Of a DNA stretch of 64,000 nucleotides, positions 54,370 to 57,413 are shown one piece after another. The notes under the pieces are model-generated. The model was given only the letters and a program-made list of their open reading frames with translations. It ran no database searches and had not been told where the DNA came from. The position numbers and the translations under genes are program-made. The DNA lies in the NCBI RefSeq assembly GCF_028867935.1, contig NZ_JAPQNS010000012.1, positions 62,001 through 126,000 on the forward strand, given 5' to 3'. Positions within the stretch are counted from its first letter, which is position 1; each line of letters opens with the position of its first letter. Source of the DNA: Flavobacterium sp. SUN052. Its GTDB lineage: Bacteria; Bacteroidota; Bacteroidia; Flavobacteriales; Flavobacteriaceae.

Positions 54370-54852
54370 TTATTGTCTATCGGAGCCTTGCTCCTTCGAA
54401 TTTTTGTCATATCCCTTGTTATGAGGATCATATCCCTCTCCTGGATTGTCTCCTTCTTCCAGATAAGTGGCATCATGGCGTTTAAAGAGAGCCTCATCAG
54501 ATGGGTTTTCCGAAACACTTTTCAATTTTGCGGCTGCTTCGTCAGACATCAAGTGGCCTGTCTTCTCGCCAGTCTCCATTGCTTTTGGGTCAACTTCCCA
54601 TCCCTGGGTTCCACCGTAGTTATCGCCTTTAGGCAATTCCGGCTTTCCTTCGCCAATGTTTGCTTCACGGGTGGCCTGCGTAGTTACCATATTCTCGGTA
54701 TCAGAGTCCATTCCCGATGTTGAATCTTTGTATGTATTTGTACCAACACCTTCTGATACCCGACCGTAGTCAGAATCGCCGTGCTGGTTTGGGTCGGTCG
54801 AGTAAAACTCGTTATCGACATTTTCCGGGTCAAATTGTGATTTGGTAGCCAT
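54370..54852 (-). CDS. Acidic, hydrophilic protein of unknown function
   Basis: A 160-residue protein without signal peptide, membrane helix or recognisable domain. It is rich in Asp, Glu, Gly, Ser, Thr and Asn (for example DPENVDNEFYSTDPNQHGDSDYGR and EEGDNPGEGYDPHNKGYDK), so it is likely disordered and perhaps stress-linked. It ends with a terminator and is on the same strand as the XRE gene, 54 bases downstream of it. No function is claimed. Confidence 0.65.
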   Translation of the reverse strand: MATKSQFDPENVDNEFYSTDPNQHGDSDYGRVSEGVGTNTYKDSTSGMDSDTENMVTTQATREANIGEGKPELPKGDNYGGTQGWEVDPKAMETGEKTGHLMSDEAAAKLKSVSENPSDEALFKRHDATYLEEGDNPGEGYDPHNKGYDKNSKEQGSDRQ

Positions 54853-54906: not shown

Positions 54907-55284
54907 TTAATTAGTGTTTTCGAATCTGGCTGTTTTCAATTCGGCCCGCAAATCATCGGTAGTTTGCTGGAGAAGCCTGACTCGTTCGTTGAGCTGAAAC
55001 AGCAAAAATTCTATGTTGCGCATCCGCTCTTCGTTAGTCACCGCAGCCGACGGCGACTGGGGCATCGACCGGAACATTAAGCCCTCTCCCCGAATAAGCC
55101 AATCGCCATTGACATGGGGAAATGCGACCAAAATTTTTTCGAGTGTATCGTAGCGCGGTTTCAGACGACCGTGCAAAATATGATAAACTTTTTCGCCCCT
55201 ATGCTCGCCTAGTTGCCGAGCAAACTCCAGAACACTAATGTCGAGAGCTTCTATAAGTTGTTGCAGGCGGAGGTGGATAGTCAT
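54907..55284 (-). CDS. CI-like XRE family transcriptional regulator
   Basis: A 125-residue DNA-binding protein. Residues about 4-65 form a helix-turn-helix of phage-repressor type (LQQLIEALDISVLEFARQLGE, GEKVYHILHGRLKPRYDTLEKIL, then VNGDWLIRGEG). The C-terminal part (about 85-122) is a coiled coil (MRNIEFLLFQLNERVRLLQQTTDDLRAEL), likely for dimerisation; no peptidase (LexA/CI) domain is present. It is divergent from the RecE-like operon. Operator-like repeats with shared sequence lie by each promoter, so it probably represses both itself and the operon. Confidence 0.85.
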   Translation of the reverse strand: MTIHLRLQQLIEALDISVLEFARQLGEHRGEKVYHILHGRLKPRYDTLEKILVAFPHVNGDWLIRGEGLMFRSMPQSPSAAVTNEERMRNIEFLLFQLNERVRLLQQTTDDLRAELKTARFENTN

Positions 55285-55298
55285 GGCTTTTGGCTGTC

Positions 55299-55324
55299 AA
55301 TTTTACACAAAACTATGTAAAATT
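55299..55324. promoter_or_regulatory. Operator-like palindrome 1 in the divergent XRE promoter
   Basis: AATTTTACA-N8-TGTAAAATT is a perfect 9-base inverted repeat. On the reverse strand the site includes TAGTTTTG, a perfect -7 element for the XRE gene (start 55284). The spacer is CAAAACTA. This is a likely autoregulatory operator. Confidence 0.7.
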
Positions 55325-55467
55325 TAGAATCTGATTGAACGGCCCGGCATATCCTGGCTTTTGGGGAATAATAAGGCCCTAAAATGTGTTTATTTAAGTG
55401 GATAGAGGTTCTTTAACGGACCAATTTAGGGGTCCGTTTGGCGGCCTAAAGTTTCTATCTGAACGGG

Positions 55468-55499
55468 TTTGAAATTTACAGTAAACTATGTATTTTTAC
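55468..55499 (+). promoter_or_regulatory. Promoter with embedded operator-like site 2 for the RecE-like operon
   Basis: TTTG (55468-55471), a spacer of 19 bases and TATTTTTA (55491-55498; consensus TAnnTTTG with one mismatch) make a good Bacteroidota promoter. Between them lies TTTACA-GTAAACTA-TGTA (55475-55492), the same arrangement as site 1 with a spacer alike at six of eight positions. A repressor bound there would block the promoter directly. Confidence 0.7.
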
Positions 55500-55578
55500 T
55501 TGTTAAATCACCCCCCTGTAAAAGGCAAAAGGGACCGCAATGTGGGCCCCCTGCTTGAACAGTAAACAACAAATACTA

Positions 55579-56217
55579 ATGAACACGCAAAACAAAAACA
55601 TCGCTGAGACAAATCAAAATGGTTTGGTACTTAAAGCGTATCAAAAAATTAACGAAGTCACGGGCGAAGTGACGGCAAAATACAAATATTTGGAAGGCCA
55701 CCCCCGCCAATATCGCTTCGATGCCAAGGAAGGTGTGTTCAATATCAATGGTTCTGAGAAGCTGGGGCGCACCCTTACGTTTCAGCCTATTGCCTGGCGA
55801 ATCTTCACCGACAATATTCTGAACATGGGCACTAAAAACTGGGCAGAACTTTTTTTCATTGATGAAAAGAATTGTGTTTCGGCCGTACTGTTCCATGGCT
55901 ATTCAGTAGATAATATTTTCCGGCTGATCGAGCCACTCTACTACGACGATATGACGCTGGCCGATGTGGTGATTACAGCCGTAGCAGAGAAGAAAGAGAA
56001 CAACAAGATTCAGCCCAAAGGCGTGTACTACATTGCCAATTTCTCCTACAAACTTGGCGACCCTGTCCGTACGGCCGAACTAAAACAGTATGCTCAGGAT
56101 GTGAAGGTATTCCGCCAGGAAACACTGACTGACATCGCCAATATCAAAACGGCTTATAATTATTACAACCCCTTCGCCCACGCGATTGAAGATGCGGAAC
56201 ACACGTTGTTGAATTAA
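55579..56217 (+). CDS. Hypothetical protein, first gene of the XRE-controlled operon
   Basis: A 212-residue protein, start at the ATG at 55579 (MNTQNKNIAETNQNG); a further upstream ATG at 55540 is in a non-homologous-looking leader. No signal peptide or membrane helix is seen. Contents are beta-rich (LTFQPIAWRIFTDN, WAELFFIDEKNCVSAVLFHGYS, PKGVYYIANFSYKLG) with a helical C-terminus. I do not recognise a family. Phage RecE-like operons often carry a DNA-annealing or single-strand-binding protein beside the nuclease, so this is a candidate for such a role, by position only. It ends 9 bases before the nuclease gene. Confidence 0.7.
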   Translation: MNTQNKNIAETNQNGLVLKAYQKINEVTGEVTAKYKYLEGHPRQYRFDAKEGVFNINGSEKLGRTLTFQPIAWRIFTDNILNMGTKNWAELFFIDEKNCVSAVLFHGYSVDNIFRLIEPLYYDDMTLADVVITAVAEKKENNKIQPKGVYYIANFSYKLGDPVRTAELKQYAQDVKVFRQETLTDIANIKTAYNYYNPFAHAIEDAEHTLLN

Positions 56218-56226
56218 CCCTGTTTC

Positions 56227-56973
56227 ATGCTCACTCAACTTTCATATACAAAGCCCTCCTTGTTGTTGCCAATGGGCGACTATCGGGCTATTCCCCGCGT
56301 GTCTAATTCTGACCTTACGCGACTGAAGGAGGAACATCTTGGATACGCCAACGGTGGGCCATCGGCGCGGTTTGCTACAGAGCAGACCCGGACGTTTGGG
56401 AAAGCGTTTCATCAGCACTTGCTCGAACCCGAAACGCTTGGCACGGTAATGCAGCAATTAATGCCTGATATGCTAACTCCCGGTCAGTTAGACCCTCGCC
56501 TTGCGCCAAAACAATCGGAGCAGTTGGGTAACCTGATGGACGTGGTCCGTCAGGATGGGTTTTGTAGGCGTTACCTGAAACGGTCCGAGAAAGAGCGGGT
56601 CGTTTTATTTAATGAACCTACCAGTGGTGTTGCCTGCAAAGCCCGGCTCGATCTGGTTTACACCAGTCAGAAGCGACAGAGTGCTCTGGTATTGGACTTT
56701 AAAACCACGTCGGCACGCACGCAGTCGCAGTTTTTGCAAAGTTGTTACGACTATGATTATGACCGGCAAGCTGCTTTTTATCTCGACAGTCTCCGTTACG
56801 CAGGCAACGAATGGAGCAGTACACGCCGGTTTCGTTTTGTGTTTGTGGGTGTGATGAAACAGAGCCCCCACCGCTTGTTTGCCGTTGATGCGACCTCCAT
56901 TCCGGGTTTTCTGGACTATGGTCGCAAAAAGTACCGCTTCTGGTTACGGAAGTGGCAGGATCAACAAGACTAA
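56227..56973 (+). CDS. RecE-like PD-(D/E)XK nuclease
   Basis: A 248-residue protein of the exodeoxyribonuclease VIII / YqaJ-like PD-(D/E)XK superfamily. Marks are GKAFHQHLLEPE (conserved GxAFHxxxLxPE near 58-69), Asp142 (CKARLDLV), the core Asp157-x-Lys159 (LVLDFKTTSART) and the YDYDRQAAFYLDSLR helix. RecE digests double-stranded DNA ends to expose single strands for phage-type recombination. Here there is no recognisable RecT beside it; the adjacent unknown proteins could be partners. The gene sits inside a repressor-controlled operon. Confidence 0.82.
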   Translation: MLTQLSYTKPSLLLPMGDYRAIPRVSNSDLTRLKEEHLGYANGGPSARFATEQTRTFGKAFHQHLLEPETLGTVMQQLMPDMLTPGQLDPRLAPKQSEQLGNLMDVVRQDGFCRRYLKRSEKERVVLFNEPTSGVACKARLDLVYTSQKRQSALVLDFKTTSARTQSQFLQSCYDYDYDRQAAFYLDSLRYAGNEWSSTRRFRFVFVGVMKQSPHRLFAVDATSIPGFLDYGRKKYRFWLRKWQDQQD

Positions 56974-56979
56974 AACGCT

Positions 56980-57363
56980 ATGGAAACATTCACGATTGAA
57001 CCGCCTATTACCAGTACAATGACGGTGCTTACGGTCTCGCCCTCGGCACTGCAATACAACTGGGGGACCGATGGGCTGGTGCTTTGGATCGAAGATCTCA
57101 GCCCCGACAATAGTTTGCTTCAACAAATGCCAAACCTGCTCGAACGAATTGGCTTTGGCATTGAACTACAAACTGGCTGGGATCATCGCTACGACACTGG
57201 AACGTTGCATCCACTCTATGGCTATCGAATTCTGTTGCGCGATGCCACGGGGCTCTGGTATGCTGTACGCGTGGATGAGAACGGGCGGTTCGTCGGGACG
57301 GTACCGTTGGAAGAGCTAGATTACGAAATTGCCTACGATATGGTGATGTGGGTTGATTTGTAG
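56980..57363 (+). CDS. Hypothetical protein, third gene of the operon
   Basis: A 127-residue protein, 6 bases after the nuclease gene and therefore co-transcribed. The sequence (VLTVSPSALQYNWGTDGLVLWIEDL, GFGIELQTGWDHRYDTG, LHPLYGYRILLRDATGLWYAVRVDENG) suggests a compact alpha/beta fold. No family is recognised, no signal peptide is present, and no catalytic motif stands out. Confidence 0.65.
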   Translation: METFTIEPPITSTMTVLTVSPSALQYNWGTDGLVLWIEDLSPDNSLLQQMPNLLERIGFGIELQTGWDHRYDTGTLHPLYGYRILLRDATGLWYAVRVDENGRFVGTVPLEELDYEIAYDMVMWVDL

Positions 57364-57389
57364 AAGATTACATCAACAGAATCAAACAG

Positions 57390-57413
57390 AACGCGGGTTT
57401 CCCGCGTTTTTTG
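57390..57413 (+). terminator. Terminator of the RecE-like operon
   Basis: AACGCGGG and CCCGCGTT form a perfect 8-base stem with a 3-base loop and a T6 tail. Confidence 0.9.

Follow-up and report, generated by a model that had tools for sequence, protein, structure and literature searches.

A candidate domesticated recombination module: a conserved RecE-like nuclease operon and its divergent repressor gene

The locus

We analysed a stretch of 64,000 nucleotides (nt) from Flavobacterium sp. SUN052 (assembly GCF_028867935.1, contig NZ_JAPQNS010000012.1, positions 62,001 to 126,000), which we call the window and which lies on a genome of 8.1 Mb (contig C4). The subject is a unit of four genes within it, namely a putative repressor gene, R, on the minus strand and a divergent operon of three genes, A, B and C, on the plus strand, with gaps of 9 nt between A and B and 6 nt between B and C. 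All the parts were found where an earlier note on this DNA, written from the sequence alone, had placed them. The gene set appears to be a fixed and tightly controlled chromosomal part in one bacterial family, and we lean towards reading it as a recombination module that came from mobile DNA. Its features, by position in the window, are the following.

R, 54907-55284, minus strand: putative repressor of 125 amino acids (aa), helix-turn-helix (HTH) domain and coiled-coil tail (the tail by eye), no S24 peptidase match
Operator 1, 55302-55321: TTTACA-CAAAACTA-TGTAAA, over the -7-like element of the R promoter
Operon promoter, 55468-55498, plus strand: TTTG at 55468-55471, 19 nt, then TATTTTTA at 55491-55498
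Operator 2, 55475-55494: TTTACA-GTAAACTA-TGTATT, in the spacer from -33 to -7 of the operon promoter
Leader of the A mRNA with the first codons (covariance model R1), 55504-55599, plus strand: hairpin at about 55524-55557, then a mostly open A-rich part at about 55558-55599 that spans the start codon
A, 55579-56217, plus strand: 212 aa, OB-like model, read as similar to a single-stranded DNA-binding protein (SSB), no Pfam, PHROG or NCBIfam family
B, 56227-56973, plus strand: 248-aa RecE-like PD-(D/E)XK nuclease (PF12684, DUF3799; phrog_412, exonuclease VIII) by profile
C, 56980-57363, plus strand: 127-aa alpha/beta protein, no family or fold match
Terminator-like hairpin, 57388-57410, plus strand: 3' of C, closing the operon

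Operators and repressor

The earlier note had claimed paired operators on the two promoters. In the window alone these prove little: 22 of 100 shuffles give as many matches or more. The claim is borne out by the relatives, where 49 distinct loci hold 91 sites at up to 2 mismatches (overlapping matches being counted separately in two loci, L022 and L084) versus a mean of 2.5 in shuffles (maximum 6, 50 runs). At least one site occurs in 48 of the 49 loci and at least two in 40, and positions 3, 17 and 18 of the consensus, which has the form of operator 1, are invariant in all 91 sites. Furthermore, a spacer of 8 yields 49 sites at up to 1 mismatch, and each other spacer from 2 to 15 yields between 0 and 5. 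The last two sites of a locus are 54 base pairs (bp) apart in 15 loci and 135-237 bp apart in others.

Regarding their placement, the operon-side site fills the spacer of a promoter TTTG-N18-20-TAnnTTTA, which follows the Bacteroidota-type consensus, in 41 of the 48 loci with a site and at one fixed place in 39, part of the -7 TA being the operator's own letters. This is where operator 2 had been described. Random positions give the spacer placement in 3.6% of cases and the fixed place in 0.02%; with the R-side site, when read towards A, it is seen in 0 of 40. With the site inside the promoter spacer, binding of R should block the polymerase directly. The R-side operator of the window includes TAGTTTTG, a -7-like element read towards R, in agreement with the overlap proposed earlier for operator 1.

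The sites also go with the R gene, a divergent orthologue of which adjoins A in most core loci. Loci are called non-core when no B more than 55% identical lies nearby; mobility is not shown for all of them, L108, L113 and L115 by a RuvB-like gene being examples of this. Two operators are present in 38 of 44 distinct loci with R, in none of 7 core loci without an intact R call (one of them, L026, has R in two pieces) and in none of 56 non-core loci; the loss of R is thus accompanied by the loss of the operators. Among 36 Spirosoma genomes, the strict pattern (up to 2 mismatches) gave 41 matches in 31 genomes, versus 3 for a reversed control pattern; 35 of the 41 are within 500 nt of the leader described below, 5 are elsewhere and one is in a genome (G629) where the leader was not located. 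Since the matches concentrate at the locus, R looks like a local, dedicated repressor.

The best matches of R were HTH_3 (0.027, below the cut-off) and phrog_8, a transcriptional regulator (5.2e-06). R had been called a CI-like regulator, and it does resemble the CI/LexA-type repressors in its HTH, its divergent promoter and the paired operators across both promoters. It differs from them in that the Pfam scan of its 125 aa gave weak HTH-type matches only and no S24 peptidase. A relative by another A locus (L053) has an HTH, an S24 peptidase domain by Pfam and a weakly coiled-coil-like tail, and because R has no such peptidase match it may be a shortened form. In another relative (L002) the peptidase was seen by eye only.

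The proteins of the operon

B matched PF12684 with 56.4 bits (cut-off 26), phrog_412 at 5.6e-29 and the structure 3h4r of exodeoxyribonuclease 8 at 0.0017. Nucleases of this class are expected to carry the PD-(D/E)XK acidic residues and lysine together with a QxxxY motif; in B the residues D142, D157, K159, Q181, Y185 and H62 are invariant in all 18 aligned sequences. Judged by profile and conserved residues, B is a RecE-like nuclease of the DUF3799 type; the earlier note, too, had called it RecE-like.

The same note had assigned neither A nor C to a family. This holds for C, which obtained weak scattered Pfam matches only and no fold match, and for A by sequence, where Pfam, PHROG and NCBIfam gave no family. 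The structural model of A is OB-like, with gp32 and SSBs among its weak matches: the gp32 core is among the best structural rows, and most others are gp32, SSB, RPA, polymerase epsilon or RuvB-like OB-type domains. Moreover, the weak viral matches of A include three named single-stranded DNA (ssDNA)-binding proteins. On the question of an annealing or single-strand-binding protein, A has an OB-like model with weak SSB matches, and C has no match. No sequence relation of A to T4 gp32 was found. RecT is not among the Pfam matches of 23 A members, and its profile PF03837 found nothing at E<=1 in the window's genome, being positive in 6 of 14 control genomes. The gp2.5 profile phrog_7011 matched 1 of the 23 members, at 0.073 only, and its sole weak match in the window's genome lies on another contig.

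The leader of A

A conserved leader precedes A, which the earlier note had missed and which is new in this analysis. The listing of open reading frames starts A at ATG 55540 (225 aa); the conserved start is ATG 55579, which gives the 212 aa noted before. A 21-nt string spanning this ATG is identical in 50 of 51 core loci, the remaining one being cut by a contig end. In these 50 loci the leader consists of AAAAGGCAAAAGGG, a hairpin, CCCCTG and then ACAGTAAACAACAAATACTAATGAAC. Identity over the 60 nt that precede the start is 88%, versus 46% at the fourfold-degenerate sites of A (946 pairs among the 44 of the 50 loci with an A stretch of equal length), the last 16 nt being identical by construction as the loci were chosen by the 21-nt string. 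The hairpin keeps 92.8% of its pair cells, versus 91.3% in shuffles, none of which equalled it, and at most 60% in slid versions; two pairs vary on both sides in 11 cells, versus 5.9 in shuffles, again with none equal. From -24 to +20 the mean unpaired probability is 0.77, exceeding all 59 window genes tested (mean 0.48). By this comparison of sequences the constraint on the leader is firm, and the hairpin fold is less so.

Covariance model R1, built from 40 of these leaders, detected the leader in 56 of 200 genomes, once in each and at E<1e-16, many of these strong matches not being independent, plus one weak match (0.0095) in another genome; the window's genome has one match. Of the 56 leader genomes, 54 have C and all have A.

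The core-type leader was not seen before the non-core A genes listed. An H-type pseudoknot lies upstream of 11 of 56 of them and in none of 50 core leaders. In all but one of the 11 it ends 25-43 nt short of the start as called; the start calls are misplaced in some loci, for example L039, L050 and L102. Dinucleotide shuffles gave 0-4 per 56 (20 runs). In other genes of the same loci it occurs in 23 of 664 under the open definition and in 1 of 664 under a tightened one, this single exception being upstream of A within that gene row; the restricted architecture was picked after the first scan, and the unrestricted comparison is 11 of 56 versus 23 of 664.

Distribution, neighbourhood and descent

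The protein search (E<=0.001) gave 671 relatives for A, 316 for B and 98 for C, the matches listed being the best 120, the best 120 and all 98. The named carriers among the 98 relatives of C are Spirosoma, Fibrella, Larkinella, Rudanella, Fibrisoma, Nibrella and Tellurirhabdus. C is a single-copy gene in 55 of 200 genomes of the family (that of genome G425), in six genera, with one weak match in a further genome. A, unlike C, has many non-core copies, because it occurs in 83 of the 200 genomes (one of them, G479, with a fragment with stops only) and in up to 6 copies each. C was found on none of the plasmids searched and is seen only with core copies. The order R-A-B-C is mostly kept across the core loci of the six genera, which answers favourably the earlier question of gene order in other genomes; the Arsenicibacter-type loci L033 and L104 have R, A and B without C.

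A-like genes are present on 15 of 72,556 plasmid records (hosts Spirosoma, Fibrella, Flammeovirga, Haliscomenobacter, Emticicia, Runella and Tunicatimonas) and on 6 viral contigs, and on none of 50,697 phage records. One viral contig (L062) carries terminase genes, a NinB-type mediator, A and B, and another (L065) a portal gene. On the Flammeovirga plasmid p2, A immediately precedes a PD-(D/E)XK gene, and on the Emticicia plasmid pEMTOL01 the order is A, DUF932, nuclease. A diverged B lies downstream on the same strand within 5 kb in 31 of the 45 judgeable loci among the 56 non-core ones; 6 of these pairs are directly adjoining and 14 have one gene between. Compared with the non-core loci, the window's copy of A reaches 84% identity and its B about 29-41%.

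Several elements (in the group L106, L107, L114, L118, L159) have DUF932 between A and the nuclease, and others DUF3846; SLOG-type genes recur close to A. In other genera of the family (L108, L113, L115, L109, L110), a distant A lies near a small gene, an R-like gene 29-43% identical to R and a RuvB-like gene, which perhaps represents a second, independent chromosomal settlement of A.

Both flanks of the unit are ordinary chromosomal genes. Upstream there are a GHMP-kinase-type gene and a 160-aa gene without a significant family, and downstream DUF748, a lipid-kinase-like gene (assigned by reading, unscanned) and an SUI1 gene; no phage gene or integrase is among the four neighbours scanned. 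In Rudanella paleaurantiibacter (L020) the gene order matches that of the window as far as SUI1. In other genera the flanks are kept in part, the Larkinella loci being R-A-B-C-DUF748 without the two upstream genes. The 160-aa gene (54370-54852, minus strand), which encodes a polar protein without a significant Pfam family, adjoins R in many core loci (50-85% identical) and remains close to A in Fibrella loci without R.

A tree of 107 distinct A proteins (51 core, 56 non-core; quick method, midpoint root, support by the Shimodaira-Hasegawa-like approximate likelihood ratio test, SH-aLRT) needs 3 changes between core and non-core labels, versus about 36 when these are shuffled. The core proteins are nested within the non-core diversity. 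Non-core ones fall inside the core group twice, L017, L061 and L062 amid Fibrella-like proteins and L064 beside the Arsenicibacter-type L104; the branch uniting the core proteins with these four has a support of 88. This topology suggests that there was probably one domestication and then two returns to mobile elements. Because the tree has a midpoint root, it is from the nesting that we take the direction of descent, and the details are uncertain owing to several long branches.

Proposed mechanism and alternative explanations

The earlier note had considered a domesticated recombination module, a defence-like system or a phage remnant. The first is favoured by the single-copy C, the mostly kept order and the nesting of core A within A copies from plasmids, viral contigs and elsewhere, and we judge it somewhat probable that the unit is a chromosomally domesticated recombination module of phage or plasmid type, an exonuclease with an SSB or annealing protein, which R keeps silent and on which A perhaps sets a further limit. 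The genome comparison shows the gene order, the operators coupled to R, the single copy, the nesting in the A tree, the pairing of A and B and the leader constraint. The comparative evidence is strong for the part of R; for the enzymology we draw on what is known of the families, and for the autoregulation on the anatomy of the leader.

In the mechanism that we propose, R would bind operator 1 on its own promoter and operator 2 on that of the operon, and thus the module would normally be off and R self-limiting. The release of R would come about by something other than cleavage of the LexA/CI type, because R has no recognisable self-cleaving domain; its signal, like the activities of A and B, annealing and autoregulation, we infer. 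Upon release A and B would be produced together, B would resect the 5' ends of double-stranded DNA, exposing single strands, and A would coat the exposed strand and anneal it or pass it on, filling a role of the RecT or gp2.5 type. C would be an accessory, present only alongside the chromosomal copy. Finally, surplus A might bind its own leader and halt translation once free A exceeds the available ssDNA, as T4 gp32 does.

The last step has a rival with even prospects in our judgement, namely that the leader acts on translation or mRNA stability for the ribosome or another factor and that A is an ordinary accessory SSB. The A-rich end could merely favour initiation in Bacteroidota, the core leaders have no pseudoknot and their covariation is weak. 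The following points weigh against the hairpin fold: the number of double-changed pairs, the pair types and the covariation score are within the shuffle range, and the folding energies of six leaders only moderately beat those of shuffles (the window's own z is -1.0). However, about 60 nt including the hairpin are conserved far beyond the fourfold sites, the strong match is single in each genome and before A only, and 11 of 56 other A genes have a structured element about 30 nt upstream. A bolder extension of the domesticated module is that A founds a new OB-fold family of SSB or annealing proteins in Bacteroidota plasmids, prophages and chromosomes, which controls its own translation through a structured leader (a pseudoknot in some non-core copies, a hairpin in the domesticated one), the chromosomal copy being the cell's own version of the T4 gene 32 circuit with a dedicated repressor placed above it, and C a partner newly gained at domestication; this we regard as doubtful.

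It is unlikely that A is some other OB-fold protein of DNA metabolism, such as a directionality or nuclease-loading factor, since most of its other structural rows are the OB-type domains named above, three named ssDNA-binding proteins are among its weak viral matches, it is paired with a nuclease and the four neighbours scanned include no integrase. Anti-phage defence, with C or B as the effector and R keeping the system off, would fit a repressed nuclease operon and a C found only with core copies; it is quite improbable given that the unit is conserved and not patchy in its clade and that none of its four proteins matches any of the 5027 PADLOC models at E<=1, a result that also speaks against the defence-like system of the earlier note. 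A decaying prophage or plasmid remnant that persists by chance would explain why the A family is also on plasmids and viral contigs. Nevertheless, we give it hardly any weight: C is kept in single copy across the six genera together with the order, operators, leader and nuclease residues, and the scanned neighbours comprise a GHMP kinase, a DUF748 and an SUI1 gene, with a fourth gene of no significant family. For the phage remnant proposed earlier, the neighbours scanned, the Rudanella order through SUI1 and the invariant active site of B are likewise adverse.

Comparison with known systems

Recombineering is built on pairs of an exonuclease and an annealing protein, which also drive recombination in phages. 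As in RecET of the Rac prophage and in lambda Red, a RecE-like nuclease gene here adjoins a putative single-strand partner gene. Unlike in those systems, no RecT is found by Pfam in the window's genome, A matches none of the annealing-protein families and the locus is present in six genera with its own repressor. For the capture of RecET from mobile DNA there is a precedent in Rac (described in PMC8987985). In the duf2800-gp2.5-polA modules described in PMC8093625, OB-fold annealing proteins (Gp2.5/DUF2815) are encoded near a PD-(D/E)XK nuclease, an arrangement like that of A, OB-like by its model, and B. The present locus differs in that A has no gp2.5 profile match beyond the weak one given above and that the nuclease is DUF3799. 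The differences from both precedents are in the partner family, the presence in six genera, the dedicated repressor and the leader.

Translation of T4 gene 32 stops once the ssDNA is covered. Its operator is reported as a pseudoknot of about 28 nt and, after it, a stretch of over 40 nt that is less structured and holds the ribosome site, and the affinity of gp32 as highest for ssDNA, then for its own operator and then for other RNA (PMC535899). The leaders of A likewise have a structured 5' element and then a less structured start region, and the gp32 core is a structural match of A; in contrast, the two proteins are unrelated by sequence as far as we found, the core leader has a hairpin and not a pseudoknot, and the unit is chromosomal and also under a DNA-binding repressor. 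The pseudoknots of the STAXI motif (RF01728) are also close to SSB genes, although they are described as tandem repeats in Enterobacteriales (PMC2864571), and Rfam gave no match at the gathering score in the 13 loci that we scanned.

Our literature searches found no account of this locus and, among the papers searched, none combining Spirosoma and DUF3799. It seems that the pair came from mobile DNA and has become a permanent part of the chromosome in one bacterial lineage. The locus offers a new candidate partner family (A), a further protein without a family match (C) and control at two levels, both open to simple reporter assays. Should A regulate its own leader, cells and an unrelated protein family would share a type of control circuit known from T4-like phages.

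Regarding the window's genome itself, its genes match Spirosomataceae, yet it was grouped with genomes of 2.4-5.7 Mb in which no B was found, and this kinship label looks wrong. The genome has two further A-like genes, at C5 54882-55379 and C6 152007-152579; contig C6 also has a replication-initiator-like gene and may be a plasmid.
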